A stretch of DNA of 53,611 bases from an uncultured Opitutia bacterium. GTDB taxonomy: Bacteria; Verrucomicrobiota; Verrucomicrobiia; Opitutales; Opitutaceae. The translations under genes were made by a program, and so were the position numbers. The stretch lies in assembly GCA_903900845.1 (NCBI GenBank), contig CAIUOU010000001.1, positions 1 through 53,611 of the forward strand. The letters are read 5' to 3'. Shown piece by piece: positions 281 to 39,922 of this stretch (position 1 is its first letter; every line of letters begins with the position of its first letter). The notes below the pieces were generated by a model. That model was not told where the DNA came from. It did not search any database and was given only the letters and a program-made list of their open reading frames with translations.

Positions 281-313
281 TTTATCCGTGCGATCCGCGA
301 AATCCGCGGTTTA
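281..313 (+). repeat. Dispersed 10-bp-period repeat (ATCCGTG/ATCCGCG type)
   Basis: Three ATCCG units occur at about 10-bp spacing (ATCCGTG, ATCCGCG, ATCCGCGG). It is nearly the same as the block at 28071-28101; both contain the run ATCCGCGAAATCCGCGGT. It belongs to the family whose best copies bound the GxxExxY gene at 37034-37469. Confidence 0.7.
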
Positions 314-397: not shown

Positions 398-435
398 TTT
401 ATCCGTGTTTATCCGCGTTCATCCGTGGTTAAACC
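398..435 (+). repeat. Dispersed 10-bp-period repeat, solo copy resembling a GxxExxY-element end
   Basis: Reads ATCCGTGTTT, ATCCGCGTTC, ATCCGTGGTT and then AAACC: three 10-bp units ending in GGTTAA. This is the same arrangement as the right terminal repeat at 37434-37469 (three ATCCGT units ending GTTAACC), but no GxxExxY gene is attached here. Confidence 0.75.
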
Positions 436-28070: not shown

Positions 28071-28101
28071 ATTATCCGCGCCATCCGCGAAATCCGCGGT
28101 G
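28071..28101 (+). repeat. Dispersed 10-bp-period repeat (ATCCGCG type)
   Basis: Three ATCCGCG units at 10-bp spacing. The segment ATCCGCGAAATCCGCGGT is identical to that within 281-313, about 27.8 kb away, showing that the family is interspersed rather than a local tandem array. Confidence 0.7.
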
Positions 28102-32500: not shown

Positions 32501-32581
32501 GCATCTGTGTTGATCCGTGGTTGGCTCCTCGTGCGGGACGGTTCGGAAGCGCGACCGGTTACCCACGGAGACACGGAGGAC
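32501..32581 (+). repeat. Dispersed repeat pieces GATCCGTGGTT and CACGGAGACACGG
   Basis: TGTTGATCCGTGGTTGG at 32507-32523 is a solo end of the ATCCGTG family. About 40 bases on, GTTACCCACGGAGACACGGAGG is the same kind of unit in inverted orientation (reverse complement CCTCCGTGTCTCCGTGGG). The opposed orientation recalls the two inverted ends of the GxxExxY element but encloses no gene. Confidence 0.55.
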
Positions 32582-32805
32582 AATGCGAATTTGGAAATCA
32601 GGAACTCAGGGCGCCGGCTTGATGAAGCTCGAAAACACCGCGAAGTGGGCCCACGGAAAACTCGGAAGACGCGGAAGGCGGGATCATTCGGGCGGATTTG
32701 TGTCCCTTCGTGGTTGCCCCCTCGCGAGGGGTTTCCGGAACCCGTACTCTTTACGTGCGCTTCCGTAGGCAACCCCGTTTCGGAAACCCGCTTCCGCCTT
32801 CGTTC

Positions 32806-36161: not shown

Positions 36162-37028
36162 TCAAGCCCCCACCGGGTGCCAGATGGTCTTGAACTCCAC
36201 GAAGTCGCGGATCGCGTGCACGGATTGGCCGCCGGCGCCCAGCCAGTCGGCGGGACTGGCGAGTTCGGTGAAACGCACCCGCTTCACGCTCTCCGCGGCA
36301 CCGAGGCGCAGCGCCTGGCGTTCGTCGGCGGACGCGGCCGCGCTGATCGCGCGCAGGTGGGCGTGCGTCGCGAAGGTCGGCAGCAGTTCGCGGCGGAAGC
36401 CGGTGAGCAGATTCACGACACCGCCCGGCAGGTCGCTGGTCGCGAGCATTTCCCCGAGCAGGACCGCGGGATAGGGCGTTTTCTCCGAAGCGAGGACGAT
36501 CACGGTGTTCCCGCTCACGATCACGGGCGCGACGAGGGAAATCAGCCCGAGGAGCGCGGGGGCGTCGGGCGCGATCACGCCGACCACACCCATCGGCTCG
36601 GTGACGGTGAAATTGAAATGCGGCGATGCGACCGGGTTCACATTGCCCAGCACCTGCTCATACTTGTCGGCCCATCCGGCGTAGTGCACGAGCCGGTCCG
36701 TGGCGGCGTCGACCTCACGCGTCGCCGCGGCGCGGGCGGCGCCGAAGCGGGCGAGCGTATCGATCATCTCGGCGCGGCGCGCCTCGAGCATCTCACCCAG
36801 CCGGTAGAGGATCTGGCCCCGGTTGTACGCGGTGCGCCGCGCCCAGCCGGGGCCGGCCTTGGCGGCGACCTCGACGGCGTTGCGCAGGTCCTTGCGGGAG
36901 CACTGCGGCACATGGGCGAAGAACGCGCCGCGCGCATCGTGCACGGGAAACACGCGGCCGGATTCCGAGCGGATGAACGCCCCGCCCACGTAGGGTTTCG
37001 GGGTCTTGGTGACAGTCAGGCGAGGCAT
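36162..37028 (-). CDS. Truncated, non-catalytic aldehyde dehydrogenase (ALDH16 second-domain type)
   Basis: 288 residues versus about 480 for a full ALDH. It aligns with the N-terminal, NAD-binding part: TPKPYVGGAFIRSESGR, RKDLRNAVEVA, TEPMGVVGVIAPDAPALLG and VSGNTVIVLASE, but the region with the catalytic cysteine and the oxyanion glutamate motif is absent. In ALDH16-type proteins such a dead domain is fused behind a full ALDH; here it is a separate gene behind the catalytic ALDH at 37464-38960, with the GxxExxY element between. The ATG lies 5 bases from the element end and has no ribosome site. It may serve as a structural partner of the catalytic subunit (inference). Confidence 0.82.
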   Translation of the reverse strand: MPRLTVTKTPKPYVGGAFIRSESGRVFPVHDARGAFFAHVPQCSRKDLRNAVEVAAKAGPGWARRTAYNRGQILYRLGEMLEARRAEMIDTLARFGAARAAATREVDAATDRLVHYAGWADKYEQVLGNVNPVASPHFNFTVTEPMGVVGVIAPDAPALLGLISLVAPVIVSGNTVIVLASEKTPYPAVLLGEMLATSDLPGGVVNLLTGFRRELLPTFATHAHLRAISAAASADERQALRLGAAESVKRVRFTELASPADWLGAGGQSVHAIRDFVEFKTIWHPVGA

Positions 37029-37033
37029 GGGAG

Positions 37034-37069
37034 GGTTAACCACGGATGGACGCGGATGAACTCGGATTC
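37034..37069 (+). repeat. Left terminal repeat of the GxxExxY element
   Basis: Reads GGTTAACCACGGATGG, then two further 10-bp-spaced CGGAT units. It pairs with 37434-37469 in inverted orientation with 5 mismatches in 36. It includes the stop codon of the GxxExxY gene and stops 5 bases before the start codon of the truncated ALDH. Confidence 0.85.
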
Positions 37070-37457
37070 AGAGAACGACACGTTCCCATTCCAATTTGGG
37101 TTTTTGAAAGGTTAGGATCAGACCCACGTGAAGACCGGTGATGCGGAGGTAGTTCAGCATCTGTCCCCGTTCGTGATCGGTGATGCGATCAATGACCTTG
37201 GTGTCCACCACCACCGCTGATCCCACCAGCAGGTCGGGCACGTATTCAGCCACCTGGACGCCCTTGTAGAGAACCGGATAACGACGCTGCTGCTCAAATG
37301 GCAGCCCTCGCATGCCAAGCTCAACCACGAGAGCGTTCTCATAGGGCTTCTCGTGCAGCCCATGGCCGAGCGCATTCAGGACCTCGAAAGCCGCGCCGAT
37401 AATCGCATGGGTCTGCGATCCCTCAGCTAGGCCGAATCCGTGTCTATCCGTGTCCAT
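37068..37457 (-). CDS. GxxExxY family protein, predicted PD-(D/E)XK nuclease fold
   Basis: 129 residues, a usual length. The name-giving motif is GLHEKPYENAL (G-x-x-E-x-x-Y). A nuclease-like active site is intact: YVPDLLVG with the acidic residue, then VVVDTKVIDRI giving D-x-K, followed by QMLNYLRITGLHVGLILTF. The family (TIGR04256/PF13366 as I recall) has no proven function. The first residues (MDTDRHGF) are encoded by the terminal repeat itself, so the coding sequence and the repeat have evolved together. Upstream is the catalytic ALDH, whose stop lies 7 bases beyond this start; expression may come from that operon. Confidence 0.85.
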   Translation of the reverse strand: MDTDRHGFGLAEGSQTHAIIGAAFEVLNALGHGLHEKPYENALVVELGMRGLPFEQQRRYPVLYKGVQVAEYVPDLLVGSAVVVDTKVIDRITDHERGQMLNYLRITGLHVGLILTFQKPKLEWERVVL

Positions 37458-37469
37458 CCGTAGTTAACC
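37434..37469 (+). repeat. Right terminal repeat of the GxxExxY element
   Basis: Reads GAATCCGTGTCTATCCGTG, then CCATCCGTAGTTAACC: three ATCCGT units at 10-bp spacing. On the minus strand its GGTTAAC supplies the TAA stop (37464-37466) of the ALDH gene, and its inner part encodes the ATG and first residues of the GxxExxY protein. Confidence 0.85.
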
Positions 37470-38960
37470 TACCCGCACGTAATCGAGCAATCCGTGACGG
37501 CCGCCTTCGCGGCCGAAGCCGCTTTCCTTGTAGCCGCCGAAGGGCGAGGCGGGGTCGAACTTGTTGTAGGTGTTGGCCCACACGACGCCGGCCTTCAGCT
37601 CGGCGCTGAGCTTCAGGATGCGCGAGCCCTTCCCGGTCCACACGCCGGCGCTCAAGCCGTAGGCGGTGTTGTTGGCCTTCTCCACCGCTTCGTCGATCGT
37701 ACGGAAGGTGAGCACGCTCAGCACCGGTCCGAAGATCTCCTCGCGGGCGATGCGGTGGCTCATCGTCACGTCGCTGAAAACGCTCGGCCGGAAATAAAAT
37801 CCCTTCTCCGGCAAGACGCACGCCGGCTGGTGCAACGTCGCGCCCTCGCGCACGCCGCTAGCGACCAGCGCCGTGATGCGCTTGAGCTGCGCCCGGGAGT
37901 TGATCGCGCCGATGTCGGTGTTCTTGTCCATCGGGTCGCCGACCCGCAGCGTCGCGATCCGCCGCCGCAGGCGGGCCAAGACCTCCTCGGCGACGGACTC
38001 CTGCACCAGCAAGCGCGAGCCCGCGCAGCACACATGGCCCTGGTTGAAGAAGATGCCGTTGACGATCCCCTCGACGGCCTGGTCGAGCGGAGCGTCGTCG
38101 AGGATGAGGTTGGCCGCCTTGCCGCCCAGCTCGAGCGTCAGCTTCTTCTCGGTGCCGGCCAGCGAACGGAGGATCGCCTTGCCGACTTCCGTCGAGCCGG
38201 TGAACGCGATCTTATCGGCCGACGGGTGCGCCACCACCGCGGCGCCCGTCTCGCCCGCGCCGGCGACGAAATTAACCACGCCGGGCGGCAAACCGGCCTC
38301 CTGCAGGATCTCCGCGAACTTGAGGCAGGTGATGCTCGTCGTCTCGGCAGGCTTCAGCACGACCGTGTTGCCCGCGGCGAGCGCCGGCCCGAGTTTCCAC
38401 GCGAGCATCAGCAAAGGGAAATTCCACGGAATCACCTGCCCCACCACCCCGAGCGGGGCGACGCGCGCTCCGGGGGCGACGTATTCCAGTTTATCGGCCC
38501 AGCCGGCATGGTAGAAGAAGTGGGCCGCGGTCATCGGCACGTCGAAGTCGCGCGACTCCTTGATCGGCTTGCCGCCGTTCAGCGTCTCGGCGACGGCGAA
38601 CTCCCGCGCGCGGTCCTGCAGCAACCGCGCGATGCGGAAGAGATATTTGCCCCGCTCGGCTCCGGGGAGTCGGCTCCACGCCGGGAACGCCCTCCGCGCC
38701 GCCGCGTACGCCGCGTCCACATCGGCCGCGCCAGCCAGCGCGATCTCCGCGAGCTTCCGCTCGTCGGCCGGGTTGATCGTCTCGAAATACCGGCCCGACT
38801 TCGGCGCGGTGAAGCGGCCGTTGATGAACAGGTCGTAACGGGGTTTGAGCTTCGGGTCGGCCGTCTCGGGCGCCGGATCGAAGGTCCAGCGGTCGCCGAA
38901 CCGCAGTTCGGGCGCGCGCCGGGAGGAACGGGAGGACGGACGGGCGGACGGGGCGGGCAT
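37464..38960 (-). CDS. NAD(P)-dependent aldehyde dehydrogenase, catalytic
   Basis: 498 residues, normal length. Key elements: GVVGQVIPWNFPLLMLAWKL and VLKPAETTS for the coenzyme site, FTGSTEVGKAI, the catalytic glutamate in LTLELGGKAAN (about E277) and the catalytic cysteine in FFNQGHVCCAGSR (about C311). The C-terminus (SGFGREGGRHGLLDYVRVG) is that of the ALDH16/betaine-type branch. DeoC upstream, 20 bases away, makes acetaldehyde, which this enzyme could oxidise to acetate; that is inference from the neighbourhood. Its last glycine and TAA stop come from the terminal repeat of the GxxExxY element, so the natural C-terminus may have been altered. Confidence 0.92.
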   Translation of the reverse strand: MPAPSARPSSRSSRRAPELRFGDRWTFDPAPETADPKLKPRYDLFINGRFTAPKSGRYFETINPADERKLAEIALAGAADVDAAYAAARRAFPAWSRLPGAERGKYLFRIARLLQDRAREFAVAETLNGGKPIKESRDFDVPMTAAHFFYHAGWADKLEYVAPGARVAPLGVVGQVIPWNFPLLMLAWKLGPALAAGNTVVLKPAETTSITCLKFAEILQEAGLPPGVVNFVAGAGETGAAVVAHPSADKIAFTGSTEVGKAILRSLAGTEKKLTLELGGKAANLILDDAPLDQAVEGIVNGIFFNQGHVCCAGSRLLVQESVAEEVLARLRRRIATLRVGDPMDKNTDIGAINSRAQLKRITALVASGVREGATLHQPACVLPEKGFYFRPSVFSDVTMSHRIAREEIFGPVLSVLTFRTIDEAVEKANNTAYGLSAGVWTGKGSRILKLSAELKAGVVWANTYNKFDPASPFGGYKESGFGREGGRHGLLDYVRVG

Positions 38961-38980
38961 GGACGGAAATTCGTGACGGC

Positions 38981-39922
38981 TCAGTAGGACTCGGCGGCCT
39001 CGCTGAAGTAGAACGGCGCCTGGTAGGCGCCCGTGCGCTCCTTCTCGAGCTGGCGCACGAGATCGTTGAGGAGCGCGCTCGCGCCGAAACGGTAGCGGGT
39101 GTTGTCGAGCCACGCGTCCCCGAGCGTCTCCTTCACCGCGATCAGGAATTGCAGCGCCTGTTTCGCCGTGCGGATGCCACCGGCGGGTTTCATGCCGGCG
39201 GCGACGCCGGTGGCGAGGTAGTGGTCGCGGATCGCCTCGAGCATCACCTGGTTGTTGCCGAGCGTGGCGTTGAGACCGGTCTTGCCCGTGCTGGTCTTGA
39301 TGAAGTCGCCCTCGCGGATTACGCGCAGCGCGAGAAACGAGGCCGCGCGGATGCTGTCGTAGGCCTCCAACTCGCTGACCTCGAGAATCACCTTGAGCGC
39401 CGCGGGGCCGCACGCCTCGACGACGGCGGAAATCTCGTCCTGCACCCGGCCCAGCTCGCCGGCCAGGAACGCTCCGCGGTTGATCACCATGTCGATCTCG
39501 TCGGCGCCTTCCTCCACCGCGGCCCGCACCTCGGCGAGCCGCGTGCGCAGCGGCGCCTGCCCGCTGGGGAAAGCGGTCGCGACCGAGGCGATGCGCACGC
39601 CGGAGCCCTCGCCGAGCGCGCGGCGGGCGTGCCGCACCATCGACGGGTACACGCAGACGGCCGCGACCGCCGGGATGTCGCCGGTGTCGTGCGGCCGCCG
39701 CGCCTTGGCGCAGAGCGACGCCACCTTGCCGGGGGTGTCCTTGCCCTCGAGCGTCGTGAGGTCGACCATCGAGACGGCGGTGCGCAGGCCCCAGACCTTC
39801 GCGGTCTTCTTGATCGAGCGGGTCGCGTACTTCGCGACGCGTTCCTCGACCCCGACCTGATCCACGTTTCCCACCTCGTCGATCAGCCGCCGCAGGGCGG
39901 CCGGTTGAGCGTTCACGACCAT
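38981..39922 (-). CDS. deoC: Deoxyribose-phosphate aldolase
   Basis: 313 residues, of the longer DeoC subgroup. The Schiff-base lysine lies in DFIKTSTGKTG and the second active-site lysine in GMKPAGGIRT; EIDMVINRGAFLAGE is the other conserved block, and VDLTTLEGKDTPGKV opens the barrel. It cleaves 2-deoxyribose-5-phosphate to glyceraldehyde-3-phosphate and acetaldehyde. It leads the deoC-ALDH-ALDH operon on the minus strand. With the thymidine phosphorylase at 30912 it outlines a deoxynucleoside degradation route, though no phosphopentomutase gene is visible here. The ATG at 39922 was chosen because it precedes the conserved region; it is divergent from the gene at 39981. Confidence 0.93.
   Translation of the reverse strand: MVVNAQPAALRRLIDEVGNVDQVGVEERVAKYATRSIKKTAKVWGLRTAVSMVDLTTLEGKDTPGKVASLCAKARRPHDTGDIPAVAAVCVYPSMVRHARRALGEGSGVRIASVATAFPSGQAPLRTRLAEVRAAVEEGADEIDMVINRGAFLAGELGRVQDEISAVVEACGPAALKVILEVSELEAYDSIRAASFLALRVIREGDFIKTSTGKTGLNATLGNNQVMLEAIRDHYLATGVAAGMKPAGGIRTAKQALQFLIAVKETLGDAWLDNTRYRFGASALLNDLVRQLEKERTGAYQAPFYFSEAAESY

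Follow-up and report, generated by a model that had tools for sequence, protein, structure and literature searches.

In RAYT/REPIN systems (REPtrons), one gene stands between short inverted repeats, and many geneless palindromic copies occur in intergenic regions. Cas4 nucleases carry conserved cysteines. As far as the account in PMC4990558 extends, the 23S rRNA intervening sequence (IVS) of Coxiella is 428 nt long, has a 28-bp terminal stem, contains an S23 ORF, and is cut by RNase III in vitro, and S23-bearing intervening sequences of 23S rRNA are described there as selfish. The multicopy intergenic repeats of Geobacter comprise palindromic families and direct-repeat families of 6 to 42 nt, within the portion of that study considered here (PMC2996986).

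The locus analyzed here is a unit of arm, gene, and arm at 37034..37469 on the minus strand of the window, the whole 53.6-kb stretch of Opitutaceae DNA under study, and it is co-oriented with its operon. Its layout resembles both the REPtrons and the S23-bearing 23S IVS, but it belongs to neither. GxxExxY units resemble RAYT/REPIN in that short repeats form inverted pairs both around a gene and in its absence. However, their enzyme is of the PD-(D/E)XK type (PDDEXK_3) and not HUH/Y1, each arm lines up several 7-bp units in steps of 8 to 12 bp whereas a REP is one hairpin, and heptamer rows are absent at the Y1 genes found in these genomes. The likeness to the 23S IVS, in the features covered by the Coxiella account, lies in a size of about 430 bp, a terminal inverted repeat of 28 to 36 bp, and one small ORF. 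The GxxExxY unit lies instead in a gap between aldehyde-dehydrogenase-like genes and not in 23S rRNA, its protein is not an S23 four-helix bundle, and its arms show no G.U pairing signature, although their spacer agreement leaves room for pairing. Insertion sequence (IS) elements with MITE derivatives likewise have inverted ends, empty sites, and internally deleted copies, but the unit encodes no DDE or HUH transposase (PF13366 was the only match, and the gene fills the unit), and no target-site duplication was recognized by eye in the two gaps inspected, ALDH1|ALDH2 and gatA|gatB. Cas4 and the lambda-type exonucleases appear similar in predicted fold and in the positions that we take to be the D, D/E-x-K, and QxxxY motifs; the window protein, however, has only 129 residues, and unlike Cas4 the GxxExxY family has no cysteine in its conserved columns. 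The Geobacter repeats are comparable as intergenic repeat families, but no nuclease is tied to them in the portion of the study considered.

RESULTS

Anatomy of the unit. The arm on the start-codon side (37434..37469) reads, in gene sense, GGTTAAC followed by TACGGAT, CACGGAT, and CACGGAT, and the inverted arm on the stop-codon side (37034..37069) has an outer GGTTAAC and then, inward on the plus strand, CACGGAT, CGCGGAT, and CTCGGAT; two of the three heptamers in each arm match the strict pattern. The inverted ends that an earlier note had read from these letters are confirmed: 37034-37069 and the reverse complement of 37434-37469 match at 31 of 36 bases, the figure becomes 34/41 when the ends are lengthened by five bases, and chance is rejected, since the next best inverted match at this spacing in a scan of the 53.6-kb window is 23/36. 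The GxxExxY gene (PF13366 PDDEXK_3, 129 aa, minus strand, 37068..37457) fills the space between the ends, as the note had also said, with its ATG (37455-37457) inside one arm and its TGA (37068-37070) overlapping the inner edge of the other. Upstream lies the aldehyde dehydrogenase gene ALDH1 (37464..38990, minus strand, N-terminal limit approximate), which terminates GGT-TAA, both codons being the outer end of the arm; downstream lies the aldehyde-dehydrogenase-like gene ALDH2 (36162..37028, minus strand). The names ALDH, deoC, gatA, and gatB are those that we presume for the neighbors from their sequences.

Two claims of the note stood in part. The N-terminus is indeed written in repeat sequence in that the gene starts within an arm, but the repeat-encoded N-terminus is predicted to be disordered (mean pLDDT of 51 over the first 10 residues), so that it seems to be no more than arm sequence read through by the gene, and not a functional fusion of protein and repeat. 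Likewise, the nuclease gene is flanked by its own kind of repeat, but that repeat is not the one word ATCCGTG; the arms are rows of element-specific heptamers with phased spacing, and the single repeat word was given up.

The encoded protein. The note's assignment to the GxxExxY family is secure, as the window protein scores far over both curated cut-offs (TIGR04256, 127.7 bits against 35; PF13366, 118.1 bits against 22) and the key residues E36, Y39, D75, K87, Q99, and Y103 are all intact. In an alignment of 65 sequences, E36, Y39, and K87 are invariant and D75, Q99, and Y103 nearly so; the window protein departs from the consensus at D85, which is mostly E elsewhere, and at T116, which is N in at least 90%. 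Its predicted model has a pLDDT of 91.4. Among solved structures, LHK-Exo (E 1.2e-3) and Cas4 (E 1.7e-3) come closest, with R2, MGME1, and I-Bth0305I further down the list, the last of them weakly (rank 16, E 0.09); L126, which contains a stop, was excluded from the structure alignment. Because no structural match reaches E 1e-3, the fold is evidence at the level of the superfamily. Pfam Cas4 matches in two relatives (E 0.064 and 0.15) were under the cut-off. A search of solved structures by sequence gave a single match, which is not credible (E 0.23), and the window protein had no match to PF05635 (S23). We also considered a defense gene and rejected it, as PADLOC returned nothing for the window protein; one of two relatives matched Cas4 (E 0.0024). 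Our searches of the open-access literature listed no functional study of GxxExxY/PF13366. From the profiles, the residues, and the model, we infer that the product is a predicted Cas4/RecB-like PD-(D/E)XK nuclease.

Inverted flanks around GxxExxY genes. For each locus, the best local match between the upstream flank and the reverse-complemented downstream flank was compared with 60 shuffles, with loci near contig ends excluded (1/63 and 3/79). The observed match exceeded all 60 shuffles at 57/62 loci of the same family (Opitutaceae), at 36/40 further loci of that family, and at 55/76 loci from other genomes, and did so at 1/121 and 4/137 displaced-window controls; flanks were not significant at 9/102 loci within the family and 21/76 outside it. 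The further set consisted of 40 of the first 50 rank-ordered rows without an earlier locus, the exclusions being eight already included or inside other loci, one at a contig edge, and one G032:C170. The outside loci are not a random draw, having been taken among the best 80 of 583 relatives; they span 19 phyla, 17 of them with at least one positive, one archaeal, and since many of the genomes are metagenome-assembled, phyla represented by a single locus, including the archaeal one, could reflect contamination. Similarity in direct orientation was also common (12/62 and 22/76), partly because whole palindromes adjoin some genes. An earlier version of the test with wider windows, which left out L007 and L113 only, gave 29/36 and 60/77, with 6/36 and 20/77 in the direct control. 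At most of the loci tested, GxxExxY genes are thus flanked by inverted repeats, which the note had proposed to examine, and an origin of the ends as unrelated chance copies is refuted by the flank test, in which displaced windows were rarely positive, together with the scan of the window.

In Bacteroides finegoldii, a GxxExxY gene lies on a plasmid (NZ_OY725952.1, L276) between radA and a gene for an FAD-dependent protein, with inverted arms of the CACAGAG/CGCAGAG type. At two other Bacteroidota loci (L141 and L120), the gene adjoins palindromic or tandem units that are arrayed head to tail.

Grammar of the arms. A typical arm consists of two or three CRCRRAK-like heptamers after TTNAAC. In gene-bearing units, the heptamers are mostly C-R-C-R-R-A-K and step by 8 to 12 bases, the right arm mirrors the left, and TTNAAC stands outside the first unit at both ends (based on 69 left arms and 73 right arms that have at least three units). 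Among 142 left arms, 60 had three strict units, 33 had two, 31 had one, 9 had four, and 9 had none. The versions in relatives include CACGAAT, CGCGAAT, CACAGAG, CACGAAG, CGCAGAG, CACTAAT, and more. Rows of at least two strict heptamers in element orientation occur on both sides at 84/140 loci, as against 15/140 in the opposite orientation; L006, L007, and L113 (degenerate, fragment, and duplicate) are outside most locus counts, the duplicate L210 never entered, and L090 and L109 were too near contig ends for this count. The majority heptamer was identical in both arms in 68 of the 84 units, against a mean of 10.6 and a maximum of 22 with shuffled partners. In the further family set, a strict heptamer was present on both sides at only 15/40 loci, of which 10 had the same majority heptamer in both arms, and the loci off the strict pattern use CACTAAT, CACTGAT, CACGGAA, and so on. 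Within one genome, a unit's own arms had 0.64 identical heptamers (n = 24), whereas an arm paired with that of another unit had 0.08 (n = 24).

The version of the heptamer also follows the protein. In a tree built from 60 proteins of the family, from which L003, L004, and L005 were also left out, the flavor changed 20 times (52 rows), compared with a shuffled mean of 36.6 and a minimum of 31, and the last base of the heptamer changed 3 times, compared with a mean of 18.2 and a minimum of 12, statistics that take no account of host phylogeny.

Repeats outside the unit. The word ATCCGTG alone is a weak signal, occurring 15 times in the window against 8.2 expected, a number reached by 2/100 shuffles. 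The two-unit word, counted with up to two mismatches and with overlapping matches included, gave 86+73 matches in the window's own genome and 0+0 with the reversed control, and is a dispersed family there. Three-unit rows numbered 48+54 against 2+0 in the control, and the 102 rows compare with 6 GxxExxY genes. In the window itself, a geneless solo row at 401..427 has three heptamers of the unit's type and ends in GGTTAA, and rows of three related heptamers lie at 284..308 and 28074..28098; a candidate geneless pair, a left row of two of the CACGGAG type and an inverted right row of two, at 32564..32712 may be due to chance. Rfam gave nothing near its gathering score.

Two other genes of this genome deserve mention. 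The diverged GxxExxY gene at G000:C107:22800-23129 (L004) has a different inverted flank word, of the AATCAGGA type, and a geneless palindrome similar to its flanks recurs in two other genomes, at the ALDH gap in G028 and at gatA|gatB in G004. The gene at G000:C166:5792-6137 (L005 and L007) is broken into two frames and retains matching arms, with three CACGGAA-type units on each side.

Specificity to the gene family. Heptamer rows on both sides were found at 42/62 GxxExxY, 0/26 Y1_Tnp, and 0/30 S23 loci. Inverted flanks without heptamer rows were present at 19/26 Y1 transposase genes (4/30 Y1 loci were too near contig ends and were not counted), and single-sided heptamer rows at two of the 30 S23 loci, one left and one right. 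RAYT was considered as the mover of the heptamer rows and was set aside, as none of the 26 Y1_Tnp loci has them. The nine genomes of the family without GxxExxY have 0 to 19 three-unit rows and the 52 with it have a median of 50; four gene-bearing genomes have almost none (G048, 1; G058, 1; G036, 2; G019, 4). Two genomes with S23 and without GxxExxY have 10 and 1 rows, and three with GxxExxY and without S23 have 45, 96, and 40. S23 counts, too, are correlated with the number of repeats (rho of 0.56 versus 0.65, uncorrected for host phylogeny), and shared descent contributes to the gene-repeat associations.

PF05635 genes (S23/23S-IVP four-helix bundle) are present in 51/61 genomes of the family. 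Those examined (L216-L245) lie between inverted arms at 24/30 loci, with 0/58 among displaced windows, and their arms, inspected by eye, are made of other short tandem words, such as GAGTCAG, GTAGCGA, GAGTTGA, and so on.

Empty and occupied sites. Relatives of ALDH2 (E of 1e-30 or better) were found in 30/61 genomes, with ALDH1 directly upstream in 17, with a transporter-like gene between the two in 5 more, and with an upstream arrangement that the 1.5 kb examined did not settle in 8 further ones. The empty sites that the note had suggested looking for at this junction do exist: the ALDH1|ALDH2 gap is empty (10 to 21 bp) in 8/17, holds a GxxExxY unit (435 to 560 bp) in 5/17, a geneless palindrome in 3/17 (G026, G028, and G017), and a 38-bp tandem stretch in 1/17. 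Only the G026 palindrome is of the heptamer type; those of G028 and G017 use other words. Among the 8 genomes with an unsettled upstream arrangement, CACGAA-type palindromes lie just before ALDH2 in G043, G040, and G027, and a GxxExxY-like end is found in G039.

At gatA|gatB, where 58 genomes had a match, the analysis covered 30 of them, and 9/30 gaps were empty, three with 11 to 13 bp and six in which the gatA stop overlaps the gatB start, the latter judged from sequence ends as no separate stop was found. A GxxExxY unit occupies 10/30 gaps, an S23 unit 1/30, and geneless palindromes 7/30 (sorted by eye, three as heptamer-type, three as S23-type, and one as neither). The window's own genome has a 59-bp remnant there, and one other genome has a 45-bp gap. 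In G049, the gap of 221 bp (L287) contains a GxxExxY copy whose middle is deleted and which keeps both arms and the ends of the gene; this internal deletion is possibly a step toward the geneless palindromes.

The 60 genes fall into up to 30 site clusters, an upper figure because clustering can split true sites, with 13 genes at gatA|gatB and 9 at the ALDH operon; a first clustering had chained 31 loci together and was replaced. A gene of the same subfamily is present in the ALDH operon of eight other relatives, in one case (L193) at the preceding upstream gap, deoC|ALDH1, and the window unit is therefore not a recent arrival. At shared sites, the site changes 7 times on the protein tree, as against a shuffled mean of 21.6, and comparison of the sequences indicates that the gene there is mostly inherited. 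The empty and occupied gaps, together with a site that follows the tree, indicate that the units are foreign to the gaps and have changed place, but slowly.

By a codon-position method, the genes are co-oriented with both neighbors at 44/49 and 22/25 callable loci (ambiguous at 12/61, 44/69, and 4/30 loci), which would suit genes expressed from the transcript of their host. A count from naive ORFs (34/61, 51/72, and 8/29) was set aside, since GC-rich DNA commonly yields spurious antisense ORFs.

Two further repeat contexts were observed. In G033, several near-identical CACAGAG palindromes (L309-L320) lie inside a dispersed repeat of greater length, roughly 250 bp, which starts with AACGTTTCA and finishes with a GAGACTATGAGG-like sequence; being parts of that larger repeat, these copies decide nothing on target duplications. 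In G053 (L148 on C216 and L149 on C93), several geneless palindromes of 118 bp surround one GxxExxY gene, the best copies being 94-97% identical to the query, in a context that from its sequence we take to be like a diversity-generating retroelement (DGR), with a variable target, an Avd-like four-helix protein, and a reverse transcriptase.

DISCUSSION

The mirrored, version-specific repeat rows around the gene suggest a tiny and undescribed kind of mobile element; no description of GxxExxY genes between such repeats was found in searches of the open-access literature. Our preferred reading, toward which the evidence leans without strong assurance, is that the 436-bp unit is a selfish one-gene element whose nuclease would recognize the heptamers of its own arms. 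The two arms, each of TTNAAC and two or three heptamers, mirrored and equally spaced, would be the element's ends, and a lone Cas4/RecB-like PD-(D/E)XK nuclease would read them. By cutting at the arms, it could allow the element to leave, enter, or convert sites. Units would insert between operon genes that share one direction, so that the nuclease gene would be expressed from the host transcript, and copies that lose the gene would persist as palindromes or solo arms and so make up the dispersed repeats, with movement being rare on the scale of the family Opitutaceae.

From the comparison of sequences, the association of the gene with inverted rows is strongly supported, as are its specificity to one gene family, the matching of arms within units, and the tracking of protein clades as observed relationships. 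The same comparison provides empty and occupied gaps and one deletion derivative, and the reading of the units as elements is well supported. Because of the specificity and the clade tracking, the recognizing protein is presumably the encoded one; binding, cutting, and self-mobilization by it are what these patterns would imply.

In an explanation at the level of RNA, pairing of the two arms within the mRNA of the operon would let RNase III excise the unit, so that the insertion is harmless and the protein secondary. The size and anatomy match the 428-nt IVS of Coxiella within the account available (PMC4990558), the units are co-oriented with the operon, the S23 genes studied here also lie between inverted arms (24/30), and the transcript folds with its arms paired (z of -4.9; 0/100 shuffles as stable). 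The spacers tell in the same direction only in part: their lengths agree between arms (0.96 and 0.95 against 0.38 and 0.31 when shuffled, n = 55), which fits either protein sites or a paired stem, and their letters agree in register (0.38 and 0.31 against 0.09 and 0.05 when shuffled and 0.15 across registers), which fits pairing or copying of the arms. However, the arm mismatches show no excess of the G.U type (196 versus 216 of the A.C type, P = 0.35), and in-register matching of single-unit variants between the arms is not clear (15 versus 9, with 28 ties, P = 0.31), results which favor recognition of repeated sites by a protein; the conserved heptamer grammar and the clade tracking also point to recognition of sequence. 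We therefore regard excision from RNA as unlikely, and we judge it somewhat less likely still that the nuclease is cargo in a MITE family moved by a RAYT, an IS, or the reverse transcriptase of a DGR. The many geneless arms of the window's own genome, the G033 palindromes inside larger dispersed repeats, and the several palindromes in the DGR-like cassette would suit such a passenger, but the Y1_Tnp genes lack rows, GxxExxY loci have rows on both sides in 14 phyla, and the flavor of the arms tracks the nuclease clade.

The finding that the same gaps are geneless or gene-bearing in different relatives would also be expected if the nuclease cut geneless palindromes of its own flavor and repair copied the gene in, with the arms serving as target and homology, and the homing endonuclease I-Bth0305I does appear, weakly, in the list of folds. 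Such homing-type drive leaves insertion into truly empty gaps unexplained, and the one clear intermediate is a deletion and not a gain, which makes it quite improbable in our estimation. Finally, a RecB/Cas4-like nuclease might serve the host at dispersed heptamers, among which its own gene would lie, and act there, for example, in repair or the processing of chromosomes. Conserved active-site residues, slow and mostly inherited sites, and a repeat number that rises with the presence of the gene agree with this; the patchy presence in 52/61 genomes, the several diverged copies per genome with different flavors, and the broken copies do not, and a host function of this kind seems to us very improbable.

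More broadly, and with somewhat less than even confidence, we put forward that the GxxExxY units, read as selfish elements, may form a new self-mobilizing class, with clade-specific words, found in bacteria and also in at least one archaeal genome, and that the S23 genes may be a parallel second class of like architecture with words of its own. GxxExxY/PF13366 proteins are widespread, and the DNA word matched to each element offers them a testable substrate. The S23 proteins suggest a further one-gene class of the same build. If the proposal is true, nucleases whose word shifts with the clade would be a natural series for the evolution of DNA recognition. A class of repeats dispersed between the genes of Verrucomicrobiota would then be accounted for as well, and the same explanation would probably hold for repeats in Planctomycetota, Chloroflexota, and others.
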